64,000 bases of DNA from Roseateles aquatilis (GTDB lineage: Bacteria; Pseudomonadota; Gammaproteobacteria; Burkholderiales; Burkholderiaceae_C), in the NCBI RefSeq assembly GCF_002205645.1, contig NZ_NIOF01000001.1, positions 558,001-622,000 on the forward strand, written 5' to 3'. Positions 11,106 through 22,676 of this stretch are shown here, one piece after another. Both the position numbers and the translations under genes were made by a program. Within the stretch, counting starts at the first letter, position 1, and the number at the start of each line of letters is the position of its first letter. Below the pieces are notes generated by a model that worked only from the letters and a program-made list of their open reading frames with translations, did no database searches and had not been told where the DNA came from.

Positions 11106-11182
11106 TGGTCGGGGTGGCGGGATTCGAACTCGCGACCCCTTGCACCCCATGCAAGTGCGCTACCAGGCTGCGCTACACCCCG
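11106..11182 (-). tRNA. tRNA-Pro (anticodon GGG)
   Basis: 77 nt with encoded CCA. The acceptor stem is CGGGGTG/CACCCCG, the D-loop is AGCGCAGCCTGGTAGCGC and the T-loop is GTTCGAATC. The anticodon stem CTTGC/GCAAG encloses loop ATGGGGT, giving anticodon GGG. It follows merR, the usual place for this tRNA after ihfA-merR in betaproteobacteria. Confidence 0.96.
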
Positions 11183-11216
11183 ACGAAGCCTCAGATTCTA
11201 TACGTATCCAAGAGGC

Positions 11217-11687
11217 TCATGCAAGCAAACTCTCTCGGATGGCCAACAATTCTTCTCTGACCTGATCCAGCGTCAGTTTCTCGAGCGACACGCTGGTGTA
11301 AGCCGCGCCGTCCGAGACCCCGGCCGCCAGCGCACGCGCCATCTCGCGCGATTCGCGCGGCTCGCGGTGCAGGTCGATGCGCGCGGACGCGAGCGCCTCG
11401 GCGCGAAACTCCTGCGCGCTCGACGACGCATGCACGGCGTCCACCAACTGGTTGCGCGCGCCGCTGATCGTGAAGCCCTGGTCGTAGAGCAGATCGCGGA
11501 TGCGGCGGATCAGGAGCACCTCGTGATGCTGGTAGTAGCGGCGGTTGCCCCGTCGCTTCATCGGCTTGAGCTGGGTGAACTCCTGCTCCCAGTAGCGCAG
11601 CACGTAGGGCTTCACACCGCACAGCTCGCTGACCTCGCCGATGGTGAAGTAGCGCTTGGCAGGAATGGCGGGAAGCGCGATGTCCAT
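11217..11687 (-). CDS. MerR-family transcriptional regulator
   Basis: 156 residues. The N-terminal winged helix-turn-helix is KRYFTIGEVSELCGVKPYVLRYWEQEF with the RRYYQHHEVLLIRRIRDLL wing, typical of MerR proteins. The C-terminal half is helical without cysteine or ligand motifs. This conserved family sits directly after ihfA in many proteobacteria. The target is unknown. It is separated from ihfA by 39 bases and is probably in the same transcript. Confidence 0.9.
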   Translation of the reverse strand: MDIALPAIPAKRYFTIGEVSELCGVKPYVLRYWEQEFTQLKPMKRRGNRRYYQHHEVLLIRRIRDLLYDQGFTISGARNQLVDAVHASSSAQEFRAEALASARIDLHREPRESREMARALAAGVSDGAAYTSVSLEKLTLDQVREELLAIRESLLA

Positions 11688-11726
11688 GGGGATCGGGTGC
11701 TCCGGCGGCTAAAGGGAGGTCAGACT

Positions 11727-12092
11727 CTACTCGAAGTCTCCGCCCGTCGGCGTGTTGCCTTGGACGGCTTCTTTCAATTTGTGACTCGCATGAAACGTCA
11801 CGACGTTGCGCGCCTTGATCGGGATCGCTTCGCCGGTGCGCGGGTTGCGGCCGGGCCGCGGCGCCTTGCGCCGGATGTTGAAGTTGCCGAAGCCCGAGAG
11901 CTTCACTTCACGCCCGCTCGACAGGCTGTCGTGAATGATGTCGAAGAAGGCCTCGACCATGTCCTTGGACTCGCGCTTGTTCAGGCCCAGCTTGTCGAAC
12001 AGCAGTTCGGCCAGCTCGGCCTTGGTCAGCGTGGGCGTCTCCAGGCTGCCCAGCAGCACCCGGGCCTGCTCCTTCAGATCGTCATCGCTCAT
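11727..12092 (-). CDS. ihfA: Integration host factor subunit alpha
   Basis: 121 residues. The HU/IHF fold is complete: [29 protein letters not shown], then [28 protein letters not shown], whose beta-arm carries the RPGRNP DNA-intercalating tip. It has a 21-residue N-terminal extension compared with E. coli. The ATG at 12092 is preceded by a strong GAGGAGGGG box, so the long form is favoured. It follows pheT by 14 bases, the classical pheST-ihfA order. With IhfB it bends DNA at recombination sites and promoters. Confidence 0.95.
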
Positions 12093-12106: not shown

Positions 12107-14524
12107 TCAGCCCCGCAGGCGCGCGCCCAGGCTGTCGCCGAGCCGCGCCACCACCTTCGTCACCGCCTGTTCGATGCGCTCATCGGTCAGCGTGTTCTCG
12201 TCGTCGAGCAGCTCCAGGCGCACCGCCAGGCTGCGTTCGCCGGCCTTCAGCTCGGCCGTGGGCTGTGCCGGCTTGAAGACGTCGAACAAACGGGCAGAGC
12301 GTACCAGGGCTTCGCCACTGGATTCGATCGCCCGCATGAGGGTGTCGTGCGTCACGCGCTCATCGACGATCAGCGCCAGATCGCGCTGCACCGCCTGCAG
12401 GCGCGGCACGCCCTTGCCCTGCGGCAGCACGCGCGCCAGCACGGCATCCAGCGCCAGTTCGAAGAGCACCAGCGCCGACGGCAGGTCGTAGCCTTGGCGC
12501 CACTTCGGGTGCAGCTCGCCCACCACGCCGATGACGTCCCCGTCCAGCAGCACGCGGGCGCTGCGGCCCGGATGCAGCGCCGGATGTTCGGCGGCCTCGA
12601 AGCTCAGCACGCGGGGCGCGAACAGCGCCTCCAGGTCGCCCTTGACGTCGAAGAAGTCGACCGCGCGGTCCTTCTGCGCCCATTGCTGCTGGTCGGCCGG
12701 CCCCCAGGCCAGGCCGGCCAGGCGCATCGGCTGCGCGATGCCGGCGATGGTCGTGTCGCTTTCCTGCACCGACGCGTCGCGCAGGAAGACGCGGCCGATC
12801 TCGAACACGCGCACCCGCGGTGCCTTGCGCGCCAGGTTGTTGCGCAGGACCTGCACCAGCGAGCCCATCAGGCTGGTACGCATCACCGCCAGCGGGGCGG
12901 CGATCGGGTTCAGCAGCTGGATCGGGTTCGCGTTGCCGGCCAGTTCCTGCTCCCAGCGCGCCTCGACGAAGCTGAAGTTGATCGTCTCGAAGTAGTCCCG
13001 GGCGGCCATCGCGTGACGCAGCGCGTGCGTCGCGCGACGTGTCTCCGAGCGCACCTTGCCGACCACCGGCGCCAGCGGCGGCGTCGAGGGCAGCTTGGGG
13101 TACCCCAGCACGCGGATGACTTCCTCGATCAGGTCTTCCTCGATCACGAGGTCGAAGCGGAACGACGGCGGCACCACCGTGATCACGCCAGGCGCGGTCA
13201 CGCGGTGCTCCAGGCCCAGGCGCTGGAACACGCCCTCGCAATCGGCCTGCGTCACCGGCATGCCGATGACCTTGGCGGCGCGCTCGACGCGCAGCGCCAC
13301 CGGCTTGCGCTCGGGCAACACGGTGGTCTGGTCGCCCATCGGGCCCGCCTCGCCGCCGCAGATCTCCTGGATCAGCTGGGTGATGCGCTCGATGTGATCG
13401 ACGGTGCCCGCCGGATCGACGCCACGCTCGAAGCGGTGGCCGGCATCGGTCGAGAAGTTGAAGCGACGCGAGCGCCCCATCACCGCCTTGGGCCACCAGA
13501 ACGCGGCCTCGACATAGACGTTCTTCGTGGCGTCGGACACGGCGGTGGCGTCGCCGCCCATGATGCCGGCCAGCGACTCGACCTGCTCGCGATCGGCGAT
13601 CACGCCGACGTCTCCGTCGACCTCGATCGTGTTGCCGTTCAGCAGCTTCAACTGCTCGCCCGCCTTGCCCCAGCGCACGATCAGCTCGCCGTGGATCTTG
13701 TCCAGGTCGAAGATGTGGGACGGACGGCCCAGCTCGAACATCACGTAGTTGGAGATGTCCACCAGCGGCGACACCGAGCGCTGGCCGCAGCGGGCCAGGC
13801 GGTCGACCATCCAGGCCGGCGTCCTGGCCGTCGTGTCGACGTTGCGCACGATGCGGCCGGAGAAACGGCCGCACAGGTCCGGCGCCTCGATGCGCACCGG
13901 CAGCTTGTCCGCGTGGGCGACGGCGGCCGGCGTGATCTCGGGCGCGACCAGCGGCGCGCCGGTCAGCGCGGAGACCTCGCGGGCGATGCCGTAGACGCTC
14001 AGCGCATGCGCCAGGTTGGGGGTCAGCTTGAGCGTGAACAGCGTGTCGTCGAGCTTCAGGTGCTCGCGGATGTCCTGGCCGAGCGGCGCATCCGCGGCCA
14101 GCTCCAGCAGGCCGGCGTGGTCCTCGGCCAGCTTCAGCTCGCGAGCGGAGCACAGCATGCCGAAACTCTCGACGCCGCGCAGCTTGCCCTTGCCGATCTT
14201 GAACGGCTTGCCGTCCTCGCCCGGGGGCAGCTCGGCGCCGATCGTGGCCAGCGGCACGCGGATGCCGACGCGCGCATTGGGCGCGCCGCAGACGATCTGC
14301 AGCAGCTCCGGGCCGCCGGCATCGACCTTGCAGACGCGCAGGCGGTCCGCGTCGGGATGCTGGACGGCCTCGACGATCTCGGCCACGACGATGCCGTGGA
14401 ACGGCGGCGCCACCGGGCGCAGCTCTTCCACTTCCAGGCCGGACATGGTCAGCAGTTCGGCCAGCTCATTCGTGTTCAGCGCGGGATCGCAGAAGGCCCG
14501 CAGCCAGGATTCAGGGAATTGCAT
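12107..14524 (-). CDS. pheT: Phenylalanine--tRNA ligase beta subunit
   Basis: 805 residues, the normal length. An N-terminal tRNA-binding OB domain (about 39-150, [15 protein letters not shown]) is followed by the B3/B4 editing domain, the B5 domain and the catalytic-like core (about 470-700). The C-terminal anticodon-binding FDX-ACB domain covers about 710-805 ([12 protein letters not shown]-like segment). With PheS it forms the alpha2-beta2 enzyme that charges tRNA-Phe. It follows pheS by 39 bases. Confidence 0.98.
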
Positions 14525-14563: not shown

Positions 14564-15601
14564 TCACTTGAATTGCGACAGGAAGCGCAAGTCGCCGTCG
14601 AAGAACAGCCGCAGGTCGTTGACGCCGTAGCGGAGCATGGCCAGGCGATCGATGCCGGAGCCGAAGGCGAAGCCGATGTAGCGCTCGGGATCGAGGCCCA
14701 TGTTGCGGATCACCTGCGGATGCACCTGGCCGGAGCCGGACACCTCCAGCCAGCGGCCCTTCAGCGGGCCGGTGCCGAACATCATGTCGATCTCGGCGCT
14801 GGGCTCGGTGAACGGGAAGTAGCTGGGGCGGAAGCGGATGTCCATGTCCGTCGTCTCGAAGAACTGCTGCATGAAGTTCACGTAGACGGACTTGAGGTCC
14901 TTGAAGCTGATGTTCTCGCCGACCCACAGACCCTCGACCTGGTGGAACATCGGCGAGTGCGTCGCGTCGCTGTCGACGCGGTACGTGCGGCCCGGCGCGA
15001 TGACGCGGATCTCGGGCATCGGCTGGCCGGCGTCGATCAGGTGGCGGTGCTTCTTGACGTGCTGCACCGCGTAGCGGATCTGCATCGGGCTGGTGTGGGT
15101 GCGCAAGACATGACCCCCTTCGATGTAGAAGGTGTCGTGCATCGAGCGGGCCGGATGGTCTTCCGGCGTGTTCAGCGCGGTGAAGTTGAACCAGTCGTTC
15201 TCGATCTCCGGACCGTCGGCGACGTCGAACCCCATCGAGCCGAAGATCGCCTCGATGCGCTCCATCGCGCGCGTGATCGGATGCAGGCCGCCAGTGCCGC
15301 GCTGGCGGCCGGGCAGCGTGACGTCCAGCGCCTCGGCCTTGAGCTGGTGCGCGAGCTCGGCGTCGGCCAGCGCCTGGCGACGCGCGGTCAGCGCGGCCTC
15401 GATGCCCTGCTTCAGCTGGTTGATCTGCGCGCCGCGGGTCTTCTTCTCCTCGACCGGCAGGCTGGCCATGCCCTTCATCAGCTCGGTGACCTGACCGGTC
15501 TTGCCCAGGAAACGGGCCTTGGCGTTCTCCAGGTCGGCGGGAGTCGTGGCGGCGGCGAAATCACCGACAGCCTGTTGGAGCAATTGATCGAGGTCGTTCA
15601 T
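14564..15601 (-). CDS. pheS: Phenylalanine--tRNA ligase alpha subunit
   Basis: 345 residues from ATG 15601 (MNDLDQLL). The frame is open further upstream but without homology. An N-terminal coiled coil (about 1-90) precedes the class II catalytic core. Motif 2 is [19 protein letters not shown] and motif 3 is [17 protein letters not shown]. The HPI and TRAM segments ([19 protein letters not shown]) are normal. It is co-directional with rplT, but a terminator-type hairpin at 15725-15757 intervenes. No Phe-rich leader peptide is seen, unlike in E. coli. Confidence 0.98.
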
Positions 15602-15724
15602 CGCGGGGCGACTGGGGTCGTTGGGCGTTAACTGCGGGGGCGCGTTGGCGAAACCTCGCGTCGCGGCATCACGCGTCGTCGGCGTGAAACCGGATGGCGA
15701 GGATCGCACCGCCGCGCCGGAAAG

Positions 15725-15827: not shown

Positions 15828-16184
15828 TTAAGCGAGAGCGGCCTTCACCTTGGCGAAGATGCTGGCAAAACCAGCAGGATCGTTGACGGCGAGATCGGCC
15901 AGGACCTTGCGGTCGATGTCGATCTGGGCCTTCTTCAGGCCAGCCACGAACTTGCTGTAGCTCAGACCCAGGCCACGGCTTGCCGCGTTGATACGGGCAA
16001 TCCACAGCTGGCGGAACACGCGCTTCTTGGCACGGCGGTCACGGTAGGCGTACTGGCCCGCCTTCATCACCGCCTGCTTGGCGATGCGGAAGACGTTCTT
16101 GCGACGACCACGATAGCCCTTGGCCAGAGCCAGGACCTTCTTGTGACGAGCACGTGCGGTTACACCACGTTTGACGCGAGGCAT
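15828..16184 (-). CDS. rplT: 50S ribosomal protein L20
   Basis: 118 residues, full length. It shows the family start [28 protein letters not shown] and the globular C-terminal part. It binds 23S rRNA early in 50S assembly. It follows rpmI by 25 bases. In E. coli L20 represses rpmI-rplT translation; whether that holds here cannot be read from sequence. Confidence 0.99.
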
Positions 16185-16209
16185 GTTGTATCTCCTTGTC
16201 TAAGCTGGA

Positions 16210-16413
16210 TTACAGACCAGCGAAGGGCAGCATCGCAGCGATGTGGCCCATGTTGGTCTCATGCACGGTCGTCACGCCGCGGAGCTGGCGCTTGTTCTTC
16301 GTGGACTTCTTGGTCAGGATGTGGCGCTTGAACGCTTGACCGCGTTTGACGGTGCCACCCGGGCGAACGCGAAAACGCTTCTTCGCGCTGCTCTTGGTCT
16401 TCATCTTGGGCAT
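16210..16413 (-). CDS. rpmI: 50S ribosomal protein L35
   Basis: 67 residues: [20 protein letters not shown] and the C-terminal [24 protein letters not shown] strong AAGGAG site lies 6 bases before the ATG. It stands between infC and rplT as usual. Confidence 0.99.
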
Positions 16414-16524
16414 GACTGCTCCTTCTATGTGCGTCCCTGCAGGCGACCACGGGACTCGCGGTACTTGACGGCCTGCAGGAGACTAATAAGCCCGCCGACG
16501 ACCAATCGACGGGCTGAAACTTGA

Positions 16525-16546
16525 GCCGGATCCCGAGGGATCCGGC
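16525..16546. other. Perfect inverted repeat just after infC
   Basis: GCCGGATCCC-GA-GGGATCCGGC lies 9 bases beyond the infC stop, in the infC-rpmI spacer. There is no T-tract. It could be a processing or message-stability hairpin. Confidence 0.4.
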
Positions 16547-16554
16547 CGGGATCA

Positions 16555-17103
16555 TCAGCTGCGCTTCTTCGGCGCCAGCACCATGATCATCTGGCGGCCT
16601 TCGAGCTTGGGCATGTGCTCGACCACCGCCACGTCCGCCAGTTCATCGCGGATGCGCTCCAGCATGCGCATGCCGATTTCCTGGTGGGTGATCTCGCGTC
16701 CGCGGTAGCGGAGCGTGACCTTGCCCTTGTCGCCGTCCTCGGAGATGAAGCGACGCAGATTGCGCATCTTGATCTGGTAGTCGCCTTCGTCCGTGCCCGG
16801 ACGGAACTTGACTTCCTTGACTTCGATGACCTTCTGCTTCGACTTGGCTTCCGCCGCGCGCTTCTGCTCCTGGTACTTGAACTTGCCGTAGTCCATCAAC
16901 CGGCAGACCGGCGGCACGGCCGTCGCGGCAATCTCGACCAGATCGACGTCTAGGTCACCCGCCATGCGAAGCGCTTCCTGGATGCTGACGATACCGATCG
17001 GCTCGTTCTCAGGACCATTCAGACGGACTTCAAGGGCGGTGATTTCGCGATTCAGGCGGTGCTTGCGCTCGGGAATCGCACGACGGTCAGCAAAAGTAGC
17101 GAT
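16555..17103 (-). CDS. infC: Translation initiation factor IF-3, with a rare ATC start codon
   Basis: 182 residues when started at ATC 17101-17103. The first ATG in frame (16965) would delete the first 46 residues of the N-terminal domain, whose homology clearly continues upstream ([37 protein letters not shown]). No ATG, GTG or TTG occurs in frame before ATC. An AAAGGTAA ribosome binding site lies 7-8 bases ahead of it. IF-3 genes typically use AUU/AUC starts that IF-3 itself discriminates against, giving autoregulation. It follows thrS by 68 bases. The C-terminal domain ends in [11 protein letters not shown]. Confidence 0.93.
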
Positions 17104-17171
17104 GGTGGTTACCTTTCGATGGGCCTTGGCGGAGGTCCGGAATGTTCAATACAACGCAAAAAGCGCCCGAC

Positions 17172-19097
17172 TCAGGCCTTGTCGGTGATGGCTGAAGAGA
17201 GCTTCACAGCGAAGTCCTCCAGCGACATCACGCCCAGATCCTGGTTGCCTCGGGCGCGCACCGCAACCGTGCCGTTCGCCTTTTCCTTGTCGCCGACGAC
17301 CAGGATGAACGGGACTTTTTGCAGTGAATGCTCGCGGATTTTATACGTGATTTTTTCATTGCGCAAATCTGCCTGGACCCTAACCCCTTGTTTTTGCAGC
17401 GTTTTCACAATGTCCGCGACGTAATCCCCCTGGGCATCGGTGATATTGGCCACGACGACCTGCACCGGAGCCAGCCAAACCGGCAGCGCGCCGGCGTGTT
17501 GTTCGATCAGGATGCCGATGAAACGCTCCAGGCTGCCGACGATCGCGCGGTGCAGCATGACAGGCGTGTGGCGCTCGCCGTCCTCGCCGACGTATTCGGC
17601 GCCCAGGCGCGCCGGCATCGAGAAATCGACCTGCATCGTGCCGCACTGCCACTGGCGGCCGATGGCGTCCTTCAGCGTGTACTCGATCTTCGGGCCGTAG
17701 AAGGCGCCGTCGCCCGGGGCGATGATGAAGTCCACGCCCGACGCCCGCAGCGATTCCATCAGCGCGAACTCGGCCTTGTCCCAGACCTCGTCCGAGCCGA
17801 TGCGCGCCTCGGGACGCGTCGCGACCTTGTAGATGATGTTGTCGAAGCCGAAGTCCTTGTAGACCTTCTGCAGCAGCGCCGTGTAGGCGACGCACTCCGC
17901 CAGGATCTGGTCTTCCGTGCAGAAGATGTGGCCGTCGTCCTGCGTGAAGCCGCGCACGCGCATGATGCCGTGCAGACCGCCGGTGGGCTCGTTGCGGTGG
18001 CACTGGCCGAACTCACCGAAGCGCAGCGGCAGGTCGCGATAGCTCTTGATGCCGTGCTTGAAGATCAGGATGTGGCCGGGACAGTTCATCGGCTTGAGCG
18101 CGTAGTCGCGCTTCTCCGATTCCGTCGTGAACATGTTGTCGCGGTACTTGTCCCAGTGGCCCGTGGCCTCCCACAGCGTCTTGTCGAGCAACTGCGGACC
18201 CTTGACCTCCTGGTAGCCGTTGTCGCGATAGACGCGGCGCATGTACTGCTCGACCTCCTGCCAGATCGTCCAGCCCTTGGGGTGCCAGAAGACCACGCCG
18301 GGGGCGTGCTCGTCGATGTGGAACAGCTCCAGGTCCTTGCCCAGCTTGCGGTGGTCGCGCTTCTCAGCCTCCTCCAGCATGCGCAGGTAGTTGGCGAGGT
18401 CGTCCTTCGTCGCCCAGGCCGTGCCGTAGATGCGCTGCAGCTGCTCGTTGCGGTGGTCGCCGCGCCAGTAGGCGCCGGCCACCTTCATCAGCTTGAAGAA
18501 CTTCAGCTTGCCCGTCGACGGCACGTGCGGGCCGCGGCACAGGTCCGTGAACTTGCCCTCGGCGTACAGGGAGACATCCTGATCGGCGGGGATGCCCTCG
18601 ATGATCTCGGCCTTGTAGGCCTCGCCGATGCCCTTGAAGTACTCGACCGCGGCATCGCGCGGCAGCACCGAGCGCACCACCTTCTCGTCCTTGCGGGCGA
18701 GCTCCGTCATCTTGGCCTCGATCGCGGCCAGGTCCTCGGGCGTGAAGGGGCGCTTGTAGGAGAAGTCGTAATAGAAGCCGTTCTCGATGACCGGGCCGAT
18801 CGTGACCTGCGCGTCGGGGAACAGCTCCTTGACGGCGTAGGCCAGCAAGTGGGCCGTCGAGTGGCGGATCACGTCCAGCCCGTCCGGATCCTTGTCCGTG
18901 ACGATGGCCAACTGCGTGTCCTTGTCGATCAGGAAGCTCGTGTCGACGACCTTGGCGTCGTCGCCGGCGCCGATGCGGCCGGCCAGCGCGGCCTTGGCCA
19001 GGCCCGTGCCGATCGAGGCCGCGACATCGGCGACCGTCACCGGATGCGGGAACTCGCGCTTCGAGCCATCGGGCAGTTGAATGGAAATGTTCGACAT
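17172..19097 (-). CDS. thrS: Threonine--tRNA ligase
   Basis: 641 residues from ATG 19097 ([11 protein letters not shown]), with GGAG 9 bases ahead. It has an N-terminal TGS domain (about 1-62) and an editing domain with [16 protein letters not shown]. The class II catalytic core has [13 protein letters not shown] (zinc-ligand Cys), [19 protein letters not shown] (motif 2) and [18 protein letters not shown] (motif 3). A C-terminal anticodon-binding domain follows (about 540-641). It is the first gene of thrS-infC-rpmI-rplT. The region upstream holds a Thr-rich leader peptide and a terminator hairpin 15 bases before this start codon, suggesting attenuation by charged tRNA-Thr. Confidence 0.98.
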
Positions 19098-19111
19098 GTT
19101 CGTGTACTCCG

Positions 19112-19144
19112 AAAAACAAAAAAGCGCGGCCACTTGCCGCGCTT
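19112..19144 (-). terminator. Terminator hairpin directly upstream of thrS (candidate attenuator)
   Basis: On the minus strand AAGCGCGGC (19144-19136), loop AAGTG and GCCGCGCTT (19130-19122) form a perfect 9-bp stem, followed by TTTTGTTTTT. It lies between the leader peptide and thrS, so most transcripts that form it would not reach thrS. It could instead end transcription from the patatin-like gene, but its position inside the thrS leader favours attenuation. Confidence 0.75.
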
Positions 19145-19233
19145 CCTGTTGGAGAGCTGATCTCAGGAGGGGTGCCTCTCAGCGCTTGCTGAGGACTTCC
19201 TTTTCCGGACAGCCGATGAAAAGACGTGACGAG

Positions 19234-19276
19234 CCGCGGCCGCTCAAACCTTGCAGAGGGAGGTCGTAGTCCGCGG
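19234..19276 (-). promoter_or_regulatory. Candidate anti-terminator segments of the thrS leader
   Basis: Segment 1, CCGCGG (19276-19271), lies within leader codons 3-4. Segment 2, GGCCGCGG (about 19241-19234), lies just past the leader stop codon. Segment 2 can pair either with segment 1 or, through GCCGCG (19240-19235), with CGCGGC in the 5' arm of the terminator (19141-19136). These pairings are mutually exclusive, the arrangement used in leader-peptide attenuators. Pairing was worked out by hand. Confidence 0.5.
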
Positions 19277-19282
19277 TGTCAT
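19244..19282 (-). CDS. Threonine-rich leader peptide upstream of thrS
   Basis: A 12-codon frame, MTPRTTTSLCKV, runs from ATG 19282 to TGA 19244. Four of its twelve residues are Thr, three of them consecutive (ACT ACG ACC). A GGAAAGG segment lies 11-17 bases upstream and may serve as ribosome binding site, although the spacing is long. The peptide is followed by overlapping hairpins and a terminator before thrS. The inferred role is that ribosome stalling at the Thr codons, when charged tRNA-Thr is short, would favour read-through into thrS. No other role for this peptide is evident. Confidence 0.55.
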   Translation of the reverse strand: MTPRTTTSLCKV

Positions 19283-19333
19283 AACCAATTCGCCTTTCCC
19301 GGTCCTTGTTGGAAAAAGAAAAATCAAGCGGCC

Positions 19334-19361
19334 AGTGTATCTCAGAGCTTCTGAACGTCCA
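19334..19361 (-). promoter_or_regulatory. Possible thrS promoter
   Basis: Minus-strand TGGACG (19361-19356), 16 bp, TACACT (19339-19334). Transcription would start near 19327, about 45 bases before the leader peptide ATG. It overlaps the end of the patatin-like gene. Weak matches, predicted by eye. Confidence 0.3.
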
Positions 19362-20424
19362 GCGTCGGCCGCATGCAGGCCTCGCGGAATTCGTCGCGCA
19401 GTCGCTCGCCCTCCTTCACCGCGCGCAGCCAGTCGCGGGCGCGGCCGGGCACGTCGTTCATGTAGCGCTGGAAGTCGTCGCGATCGGGCAGCTTGCCGTT
19501 GGGCAGCGTCTTCACCCATTCGGGGTTAGGCGTCAGCAAGACGACGTTGTCCAGGAAGGCGCTGGGCCGGTGACGACGCTTGAGCGTCTTGTCCAGCCAG
19601 CCCGGGACCACGCTGGCCTGGAAGTGCGGATACAGCGCGATGCCGTCGCCCACCATCGCAGCGTAGTTCAGGTGCAGGTGGTAGTCGGTGATGCCGCCGT
19701 CCCAATAGGCGCCGGCGGGCGCGCCGGCGATGTCGTGGACGGCCTGCAGCCAGAACGGGATGGAGCAACTCGCCAGGATGCTGGGCTGGAGGTTGCCCGC
19801 GTCCAGCGGCACCTGCCGGCTGCGGTAGTCGTGGAGCGGCATCGGCAGTGGCGAGCGCCGATCGGAGAACACGACGCGCTCCAGCCACGCGCCCATCGCG
19901 CGGCGCGACATCGCGTTCGCCGCGAACGCGCCGAGGTAACCGAGTGGCGTGCGCAGGCGCCCTTCCCGCCCGAGCACATGCCGCCCGCGCGAGGTGAACA
20001 CATGCAGCCGGTATTGCGGATGGCCGAGCACCTCGGCCTCGCGTCCACCGAAGATCTCGCCGAGCTTGTCGGAGAAAGCCCGGCTGACCGTCGCGGCGGT
20101 GGGTCGCTTGCCGGGCTCCGAGTCGTAGTCCTGATGCGCGTAGTCATGGGCCAGGCGCTCGAACTCCGCGGCAGTGCCCGCCGCATCACGCGCCAGGCAG
20201 GCGGTGGCCATGCGCCAGGCACCGATGGACGCGCCCAGCAGATGGACCTCCCGCCCGCCCGAGGGCAGGAACTCGCCGAACAGATGCGCGTCGAGCGCGC
20301 TCAGGATCAGCCCCTTCGGGCCGCCGGCGGCGCCGGGCACCACCCGCACATCGGCGGCCCGCAGGCCGTGGTCGCGCAGCCGTTGGCGCGCCCGGGGTCC
20401 GGCAAGAATCTGCAATGCCTGCAT
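19342..20424 (-). CDS. Patatin-like phospholipase
   Basis: 360 residues. It has the glycine-rich oxyanion segment PGAAGGPKG (about 31-39), the nucleophile elbow GASIG (Ser at about 66) and the catalytic Asp in DGGITDYH (about 245). This is the Ser-Asp dyad of patatin-like lipid acyl hydrolases. There is no signal peptide, so it is probably cytoplasmic or membrane-associated. It ends 60 bases before the thrS leader peptide. Substrate unknown. Confidence 0.85.
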   Translation of the reverse strand: MQALQILAGPRARQRLRDHGLRAADVRVVPGAAGGPKGLILSALDAHLFGEFLPSGGREVHLLGASIGAWRMATACLARDAAGTAAEFERLAHDYAHQDYDSEPGKRPTAATVSRAFSDKLGEIFGGREAEVLGHPQYRLHVFTSRGRHVLGREGRLRTPLGYLGAFAANAMSRRAMGAWLERVVFSDRRSPLPMPLHDYRSRQVPLDAGNLQPSILASCSIPFWLQAVHDIAGAPAGAYWDGGITDYHLHLNYAAMVGDGIALYPHFQASVVPGWLDKTLKRRHRPSAFLDNVVLLTPNPEWVKTLPNGKLPDRDDFQRYMNDVPGRARDWLRAVKEGERLRDEFREACMRPTLDVQKL

Positions 20425-20468
20425 CGGCGAGTCGTCCTTTCGTGGGCGCCCGCCGCGGACAGGCGCGC

Positions 20469-22676
20469 TTACAGCTTCATGTCGAGGGCGAGGATCACCA
20501 GGGTGCGGGTTCCGCGGTCCGCGTAGGTGTAGTCGCCGCCGCCGGGGCCGCCGCTGACGGTGGTCAGGCGGGTGTTGCCCAGCGGGGCCAGATTATTGGC
20601 CGACAAGCGCAGCGACGTCTTCGGGCTGAAGACCCATTGTGCGAAGACGTCCAGTTGACGCGTGCGCCACTGGTCGAGCGACTGGATGTCGGTCTGCCGC
20701 GTGGTGTAGCCCGGCGTGTAGACCAGGCTGGAGCCGACCGTCAACGGCATGCCGGTGAAGCGGTAGTCGAAGCCCAGGCTGCCCGACCACGGCGGCTGCT
20801 GGTCGAGGCGGTTGTCCGGCCCCGGCAATGTCTTCACCCGCGAGCGATAGACGCTCAGCGCGGCACGCAGGTTGAGCGCCGTCTTGGGATCGAACATCGA
20901 CGGCAGCAACTCGCCGGCCCGGCCCTTGAGCTCGGTCTCGATGCCGCTGGTGGTAGCGCGCGAGATGTTGGACGGCCGCATCACCCAGCGCGGCACCGGC
21001 ACCAACGCGCTCGGCGCGTCCAGCGTCGTGACGTTGCGGATCAGGTTGTCGATGTTGCGATGGAAGAAGCCCAGGCTGAACATCCCGCCGCCGGCCATGT
21101 ACCGCTCATAGGCGATGTCAAGACCGGTCGCGAGCTCGGGCTTGAGCAGCGGATTGCCGACCCGGTCGGGCGACAGCGCGTCGTTCTGCTCGTTCGCCGA
21201 CGGGTAGTTGCTGTTGAGCGCGTAACGCCCCATCAGCTGCGAGATGTCCGGCGACTTGTAGCTGCGGGTCAGGCTGGCGCGCACCATCTCGCGCCCCTTC
21301 GGGTCGAGCTTCCAGTTCAGGTGGAGCAAGGGGCTGAAGACGCTGCTGCTGTTGCGCACGTCGACGCCGACACCGCTGCTGGTGGTGGAGACACGCTCGG
21401 TGCGCACGCCCAGCGAGGCCGACCACAGCGGGTTGATCTCCCACTCGTCCTGCAGGTAGAACGCGCGCCTGTCGATGCGGGCGCGGAAGGCTTCGCCGTT
21501 GAGGGACGGCAGCTGGCCGACGCCGCCGACGGTGGTCGTGCGGGTCTCGTCGCGCCGGCGCCATTCCAGATCCCAGCCGGCGCTGACGGTGTGGTCGTCA
21601 CCGACCAGTTGGCTGAACTTGCCGGCCTGCGTCAGGCCGCGATCGGTGTTGCCGCCGAGGCTGCGCACCGGCGCGACGGCATTCAGCGTGCGGTTGTCCC
21701 AGCTGGCCTTGGCCTCCTGCGCGCCAGCCTTGAGCTCGAACTTCTGCGAGTCGTTGAGGCGCTTGCTCCATTGCGCGTTGGCGCGAAGCATCTGCCAGGT
21801 GCCGTCGTTGTCGGAGCTGTCATCCAGCTTCGGGCTCTTGTAGTTGCCGCCGTTGATCACGCGCGTGTCGCTGTTCCACCAGCCCTTCTGCAGGAAACCC
21901 TGCAGCGTGACGGTCTCGTCGTCGCTGATCTTCCAGTTCAGGCGCGGCGCGCTGTTGATGCCGTGACCATGGTTGCGGGTGTCCGCGTGCTGGGTCGCGA
22001 CGACCGGCGCGTTGGCGGCGTCGGTGCCGGGGCGGCGCACGTCCAGCTCCTGCTTGTTCACCCACATGAAGCCGGACAGCGGCAGCGTGAAGGACACCGG
22101 CCCGAGGCGCTCGCTGAACGTGAGCGTGCCCGACGGACGCGGGCTCTCGATGTTGTAGACCAGGGCCGTGCGCAGATCGAGTTGCGATACGCGCGGCGGC
22201 TCCTTCAAGATGACGTTGATGGCGCCGGCCACCGATTGCGCGCTCTGGTCGGCGGTCGCGCCCTTGGTGACTTCGATGCGCTCGATCTGGGCAGGATCCA
22301 GTTGATCCAGCTTGAACCCGGGGGGCGCCGGGTCGCCGTTGATCAGCACCAGCGTGTAGCCGTTGCCCAGGCCGCGCATGCGGACCGCGCCGTCCACGAC
22401 GCTGATGCCGGGCAGCCGCTTGAGCACATCGGCGATGTTGGTGTCGCCGTAGCGGTCCAGCTCGTCACGGCCGTAGACCTGCTTGGCGACCGACGCCTTG
22501 CGGCGAAGGTCGTTGTCGGATTGGCGGCCGCCAGTGATCTCGACACGGTCGAGGCGGCGCTGCGGCGCTTCCGTCCCAGGCGGGCCCTCCTGGGCAAGAA
22601 CGAAGGAACTGGCGGTCAGGCCGGCGACGGGCAGGCAAGCGAGCAAACAGGCCCGGGCGATGGCGTGGGTCTTCAA
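20469..22676 (-). CDS. TonB-dependent outer membrane receptor
   Basis: 735 residues with a signal peptide (MKTHAIARACLLACLPVAGL...VLAQ). The plug domain (about 45-165) has RVEITGG near the TonB box region, DVLKRLPGISVVDGAVRMRGLGNGY, and IERIEVTKGATADQSAQSVAGAINV. A 22-strand barrel follows and ends in TLVILALDMKL. TonB receptors import siderophores, cobalamin or oligomeric organic matter using proton-motive force. No fecR-like sensor is adjacent, so the ligand cannot be inferred. Another plug-barrel class is unlikely. Confidence 0.9.
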   Translation of the reverse strand: MKTHAIARACLLACLPVAGLTASSFVLAQEGPPGTEAPQRRLDRVEITGGRQSDNDLRRKASVAKQVYGRDELDRYGDTNIADVLKRLPGISVVDGAVRMRGLGNGYTLVLINGDPAPPGFKLDQLDPAQIERIEVTKGATADQSAQSVAGAINVILKEPPRVSQLDLRTALVYNIESPRPSGTLTFSERLGPVSFTLPLSGFMWVNKQELDVRRPGTDAANAPVVATQHADTRNHGHGINSAPRLNWKISDDETVTLQGFLQKGWWNSDTRVINGGNYKSPKLDDSSDNDGTWQMLRANAQWSKRLNDSQKFELKAGAQEAKASWDNRTLNAVAPVRSLGGNTDRGLTQAGKFSQLVGDDHTVSAGWDLEWRRRDETRTTTVGGVGQLPSLNGEAFRARIDRRAFYLQDEWEINPLWSASLGVRTERVSTTSSGVGVDVRNSSSVFSPLLHLNWKLDPKGREMVRASLTRSYKSPDISQLMGRYALNSNYPSANEQNDALSPDRVGNPLLKPELATGLDIAYERYMAGGGMFSLGFFHRNIDNLIRNVTTLDAPSALVPVPRWVMRPSNISRATTSGIETELKGRAGELLPSMFDPKTALNLRAALSVYRSRVKTLPGPDNRLDQQPPWSGSLGFDYRFTGMPLTVGSSLVYTPGYTTRQTDIQSLDQWRTRQLDVFAQWVFSPKTSLRLSANNLAPLGNTRLTTVSGGPGGGDYTYADRGTRTLVILALDMKL

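Follow-up and report, generated by a model that had tools for sequence, protein, structure and literature searches.

The window analyzed here, a stretch of 64,000 nucleotides from Roseateles aquatilis, carries on its minus strand the gene order thrS, infC, rpmI, rplT, pheS and pheT. The first gene, thrS (threonine--tRNA ligase; 17172..19097; TIGR00418, 722.5 bits), has its ATG beginning at 19097 and is followed by infC (IF-3; 16555..17103; TIGR00168), rpmI (L35; 16210..16413; TIGR00001), rplT (L20; 15828..16184; TIGR01032), pheS (14564..15601; TIGR00468; the start is inferred, the profile search having used 14564-15607), and pheT (12107..14524; TIGR00472). For infC we presume an ATC start; the expected position (17103-17101) holds no ATG, GTG or TTG, ATC fits, and the earliest of those three codons in the frame, at 16965, lies deep within the protein. 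Rare start codons are usual in IF-3 genes. Upstream of thrS and its leader region, a gene for 360 amino acids on the same strand (19342-20424) had no NCBIfam match at E 0.001. Downstream of pheT (11106-12092) there are two genes, presumably ihfA-like (11727-12092) and MerR-like as far as we recognize them from the sequence, and then a tRNA-Pro(GGG) with a terminator-like hairpin after it.

Between the upstream gene and thrS, we found a leader peptide frame of 12 codons, MTPRTTTSLCKV (19282-19244, minus strand), which reads ATG ACA CCG CGG ACT ACG ACC TCC CTC TGC AAG GTT with the stop TGA. Codons 2, 5, 6, and 7 are threonine codons, the last three being consecutive. A Shine-Dalgarno-like site, GGGAAAGG (19300-19293, minus strand), lies ten bases ahead of the leader ATG, and GAGAAAGG/GGGAAAGG is found at a roughly equal position in many relatives. 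A probable -10 element, TACACT (19339-19334, minus strand), is accompanied by a weak -35-like TGGACG (19361-19356) at a spacer of 16. In 56 of 85 close relatives a TANRAT hexamer occurs 38-65 bases upstream of the leader, against 1/85 and 2/85 in two farther-upstream stretches; in other families the counts are 5/39 against 4/39 and 1/39. TACACT in the window departs from the TANRAT pattern, and a promoter consensus scan of 16000-20500 reported no promoter, the leader region included. Several codons of the leader core are rare in nine genes of the window, where ACA and ACT account for 4 and 5 of the 206 threonine codons, respectively, and CGA for 7 of the 360 arginine codons.

Between the leader and thrS lies an intrinsic terminator, AGGAAGCGCGGC-AAGTG-GCCGCGCTTTTT (19147-19119, minus strand), which has the most pairs among seven terminator-like sites in 4.5 kb on both strands (2.9 expected). 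Its T-rich tract runs to 19112, the thrS ATG follows 14 bases past the tract end, and about 20 bases separate the stem from this ATG. Four minus-strand segments can be delimited: segment 1, the protector arm (19261..19281), overlapping the leader from its start codon to codon 8; segment 2 (19227..19251), part of which (19240-19232) has the terminator 5' arm as a second partner; segment 3, the terminator 5' arm AAGCGCGGC (19136..19144); and segment 4, the terminator 3' arm GCCGCGCTT (19122..19130). In the folded free RNA, 19281-19261 pairs with 19251-19227, which keeps segment 2 away from the terminator, and the 5'-arm part 19146-19141 pairs locally with 19157-19151. When segment 1 is masked, as by a ribosome positioned on Thr5 or Thr7, the partner of 19240-19232 becomes 19143-19136. 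Once the complete terminator is present, it wins at equilibrium in the window's folding, the stalled state included, and therefore read-through would have to be kinetic, decided during transcription. The leader fold of the window has a z of -2.5 against dinucleotide shuffles, 1 of 200 of which folded equally well. In the free RNA, the Shine-Dalgarno region (19305-19291) pairs with 19226-19211, beyond segment 2; such pairing could make translation of the leader less efficient if transcription gets ahead of it. The first-pass annotation had claimed a 12-codon frame with three consecutive threonine codons, an intrinsic terminator just ahead of thrS, and GC-rich segments with exclusive alternative pairings; the frame and its codons 5-7, the terminator with its T tract ending 14 bases before the ATG, and the alternation between 1:2 in free RNA and 2:3 with segment 1 masked bear these claims out.

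We then compared 111 thrS loci, comprising the best 80 of 586 titled candidates (best matches, a few of which may fall outside the window's family), 30 loci obtained by sampling 150 genomes of the family (146 with thrS), and another copy of the window's locus. Two loci are copies of others (L002 of L001, and L036 of L006), leaving 109 distinct ones. A leader of the form M/V-T-P/L-R-T stands ahead of thrS at 91 of the 111 loci and is nearly always encoded as ATGACACCGCG[A/G]AC[T/G]. Of 300 genomes sampled from the order, 35 contained the exact core pattern, in a single copy each, and wherever sequence was available (30/30) it lay ahead of thrS. The core occurs once in the window's genome as well, and a repeated genomic motif is thereby ruled out. 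In another 89 thrS upstream regions of the order (29 + 60 loci) we found the variants MTPLT, MRPPTT, MAPRT, and MTTRTTT; inspection added MPRT and a single frame that may start with ATA. Looser leaders from other families of the order, such as MFKRTTTTRISR, MAVRTTTTHP, MQLNRTTTTS, MSFRTRMTTDA, and MTLRTCTKH among others, have only Arg-Thr in common, mostly encoded as CGA-AC[T/G] with CGA-ACA and CGC-ACA as exceptions. Among the thrS upstream regions inspected, many families of the order displayed no leader of the M-T-P-R-T or Arg-Thr type.

A fixed Arg-Thr criterion selected 89 of the 109 close loci and 18 of 79 other loci of the order, the latter being an underestimate because six dropped duplicates of pattern-selected loci (85 reduced to 79) all have the core; shuffled sequence gave 2-3%. 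Loci that had been selected by the pattern itself (L112-L142) were left out of these rates and of the rates based on codons 1-3 below. Among 29 genomes (29 loci) from other orders of the class, the Arg-Thr criterion selected none, and none of the 229 class-sample genomes outside the window's family contained the exact core, the three matches among 232 being family members. Under a looser threonine rule, two frames from outside the order came up, MSTTTAQR at L256 and a threonine-containing frame ending at thrS at L252; both were taken as chance. Of 18 loci scanned around thrS and the leader region, selected partly for a visible tRNA end, 15 have a tRNA-Val(GAC) nearby (L113, L114, L127, L128, L130, L131, L154, L158, L159, L164, L167, L170, L197, L214, and L225), and at these loci the leader may follow the tRNA transcript.

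The terminator is preserved along with the leader. In our catalogue of 127 distinct leaders, a hairpin with an energy of -10 kcal/mol or lower was called for 125, although in three of the 125 it is not the usual terminator, and the stem keeps its pairing with different letters and with changes on both sides (GCGCGG, GTGCGG, ACGCGG, GCACGG, and GGCAGC types). Five loci (L035, L081, L086, L110, and L091) have a terminator-like hairpin ahead of thrS without a recognizable leader; L091 retains a decayed core, ATAACACCGCGAATT, the ATG of which is lost.

We estimated the conservation of codon 5 with the leader located independently of that codon. In 198 distinct loci that had not been chosen by the core, the leader was placed by codons 1-3 and the four preceding bases, which located it in 107 loci and in none of the reversed-sequence controls. 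Codon 5 is threonine in 106 of these 107 (99 ACT and 7 ACG), with L091 as the sole exception, and codon 4 is CGA in 94, CGG in 8, CTG in 3, and CCG in 2, i.e., leucine or proline in five. The corresponding figure for pattern-located leaders, Thr5 in 125 of 125, is circular since the pattern itself demanded AC[T/G] there. The core DNA is nearly invariant, third codon positions included. The tail codons after codon 5 vary in DNA and are nevertheless enriched in threonine, with 248 of 1004 codons in frame against an expectation of 73.9 (500 nucleotide shuffles: sd 8.4, highest count 101), and the two other frames gave 13 and 30; L158 and L159 were left out of the codon table, each lacking one codon. 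Outside the close relatives, the tails hold 39 threonine codons in 253 against 15.7 expected, and 0 of 1000 shuffles were as high. Threonine is absent from codons 6-13 in 23 of 122 unique tails. With the leader frame (91/111), the threonine codons (106/107 at codon 5), and the terminator all conserved, the comparison across relatives named in the first-pass annotation as a check came out in its favor. Its emphasis on the run of three threonines has to be shifted: what is conserved is Met-Thr-Pro-Arg-Thr and, over a wider range, Arg-Thr, in most cases encoded by CGA-AC[T/G]. An explanation by the threonine run alone was rejected, as the run varies and the Arg-Thr core hardly does.

To follow the predicted switch across leaders, we computed partition functions with masked ribosomes for the RNA before the 3' arm is made, in 122 leaders; five of the 127 were dropped for lack of a good terminator call (L049 and L162) or because the wrong one was called (L075, L078, and L099). 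Mean occupancy of the terminator 5' arm by upstream RNA was 0.36 in free RNA; a ribosome stalled at Thr5 raised it to 0.72 and one placed at the leader stop to 0.61, whereas controls with shuffled middles gave 0.56 free and 0.62 stalled at Thr5; the window itself gave 0.46, 0.88, and 0.79. From free to Thr5-stalled, occupancy rose by more than 0.1 in 95 of the 122 leaders and was reversed in eight. These values agree with the proposal of the first-pass annotation that a ribosome stalled at the threonine codons favors the 2:3 pairing (0.36 to 0.72). Its companion proposal, that a ribosome at the leader stop frees the terminator, is less clear, segment 3 being still occupied at 0.61 (0.79 in the window). 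Close relatives (n = 90) gave 0.34 free, 0.79 at Thr5, and 0.68 at the stop; other families (n = 32) gave 0.40, 0.52, and 0.41. In these families a rise of more than 0.1 was seen in 18 leaders and a fall in six, with p 0.027 against controls, this and all other p values being too small since the leaders are related by descent. The 1:2 protector helix of the first-pass annotation is supported in the window's close relatives, where its pairing exceeds controls (0.53 against 0.33); in the other families the pairing was no better than in shuffled controls (0.39 against 0.38).

The alternative pairings overlap, sharing segment 2, in 92% of 125 leaders. In a partner-swapping test on 46 leaders that represent 28 terminator types, for which the terminator stem served as positive control, the native 2:3 pairing proved more stable than swapped ones (permutation p 0.015) and so did 1:2 (p 0.032). 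Duplex tests of single leaders reached p 0.05 in 16% (segment 1:2) and 17% (segment 2:3) of the 125, and best-duplex energies per leader shifted modestly because the segments have self-complementary CGCG cores. Taken from these models, the switch signal appears strong in the window's close relatives and weak elsewhere.

Sequence and comparison establish that the leader's threonine codons are under selection, that a terminator precedes thrS, and that the pairings are mutually exclusive. With its putative ribosome site, its cognate codons in a frame predicted to be translated, its intrinsic terminator, a modeled antiterminator pairing that would exclude this terminator and, in the window and its close relatives, a predicted protector, the leader conforms to the attenuator class. 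It is thus highly probable, in our view, that the locus is a ribosome-mediated transcription attenuator responsive to charged tRNA-Thr, with thrS under its control and, given co-transcription, infC-rpmI-rplT-pheS-pheT as well; co-transcription from thrS to pheT is plausible because the gene order suggests one unit. This is the mechanism advanced in the first-pass annotation and the best supported one, and within it we infer the threonine dependence of transcription. When Thr-tRNA is scarce, the ribosome would pause at the threonine codons between 2 and 7 and cover segment 1; segment 2 would then pair with the terminator 5' arm and the polymerase would read through into thrS. With Thr-tRNA in good supply, the ribosome would reach the stop, segment 2 would be covered or re-paired with segment 1, the terminator would form, and transcription would stop shortly before thrS. 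A shortage of Thr-tRNA would accordingly be expected to raise thrS transcription, and perhaps the translation genes behind thrS are switched on too. A response of everything down to pheT would depend on internal promoters, which may exist although the scan of 16000-20500 reported none.

Other readings explain parts of these data. The terminator could belong to the upstream gene or to a short RNA, with thrS transcribed from elsewhere and the leader frame having no sensing role. Most leaderless close loci do still have a terminator-like hairpin before thrS, some of them shortly past the upstream gene, but the threonine codons are selected in frame, a -10-like element and a Shine-Dalgarno-like site precede the leader, and the T tract ends only 14 bases from the thrS ATG, all of which makes this reading very unlikely. 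The near-invariance of the core down to third codon positions, and its use of codons rare in the nine window genes (ACA, ACT, and CGA), would also suit a leader to which ThrRS binds, as it does in E. coli, the conserved CGAACT core being the binding site and the effect here being exerted through transcription termination. Such binding would leave the threonine enrichment of the variable tail unexplained, and the gap from the terminator stem to the thrS start measures only about 20 bases; we regard it as most improbable.

The same invariance could be accommodated within attenuation if the M-T-P-R-T core added a step of its own, through slow decoding of CGA-ACT or a nascent-peptide effect. Codon 4 is CGA in 94/107 and codon 5 ACT in 99/107 though both are rare in the window, Arg-Thr recurs in families where the other leader residues differ, and given the rarity of ACA, ACT, and CGA the codons themselves might have a role in addition to pairing. 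Yet the core overlaps segment 1, so that pairing alone could hold it, and codon 4 is leucine or proline in 5/107; an extra step is, in our judgment, quite unlikely. A wider reading, which we put forward tentatively and consider doubtful, is that of an ancestral threonine sensor throughout the order, in which charged tRNA-Thr would set the transcription of ThrRS, IF-3, L35, L20, and PheRS together and the near-invariant CGA-ACT would be the slow step that tunes ribosome timing.

Among Rfam models, the threonine operon leader included, none matched the leader, the only hits being a tRNA elsewhere and a sub-threshold anti-hemB at 16482-16551; the T-box covariance model did not match at the locus either. 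Our literature search found no thrS leader-peptide attenuator, older attenuator surveys beyond the search being places where one may be listed, and thrS is absent from the main text of one attenuator survey (PMC2965389).

The attenuation reading places the locus beside the classical leader-peptide attenuators, exemplified by the trp, his, thr, leu, ilv, and pheA operons of enterobacteria (PMC1183508). It shares with them a short frame rich in cognate codons, the protector/antiterminator/terminator alternatives (the protector likeness holding in the window and close relatives), and an intrinsic terminator before the first gene; it differs in that segment 1 overlaps the leader start codon and in its target, an operon for a tRNA synthetase that also encodes IF-3 and two ribosomal proteins. 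Synthetase genes under classical attenuation by their own amino acid are represented by pheST in gamma-proteobacteria and by trpS and leuS in Streptomyces (PMC1262725). In contrast to these, the leader described here has threonine codons, thrS is the first gene, and the lineage is another one.

The 127 distinct leaders constitute natural variants of one attenuator in which the evolution of leader codons and RNA switches can be studied, and threonine supply may be coupled to an initiation factor and ribosomal proteins. In T-box leaders, which precede synthetase genes in Firmicutes, transcription antitermination responds to uncharged tRNA; antitermination of transcription would be common to both, whereas sensing at the present locus would go through the translating ribosome. 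The thrS gene of E. coli is the textbook example of a gene repressed at translation, ThrRS acting at an operator with a hairpin that resembles tRNA-Thr and overlaps the ribosome site of thrS. The gene and the sense of the response (low charging, more enzyme) are identical, but the locus described here has a leader frame and a terminator. Much of one bacterial order appears, unlike E. coli, to use classical attenuation for thrS, which would show how differently one essential synthetase can be wired, and the locus would be a new member among the classical attenuators, its target being an unusual one.
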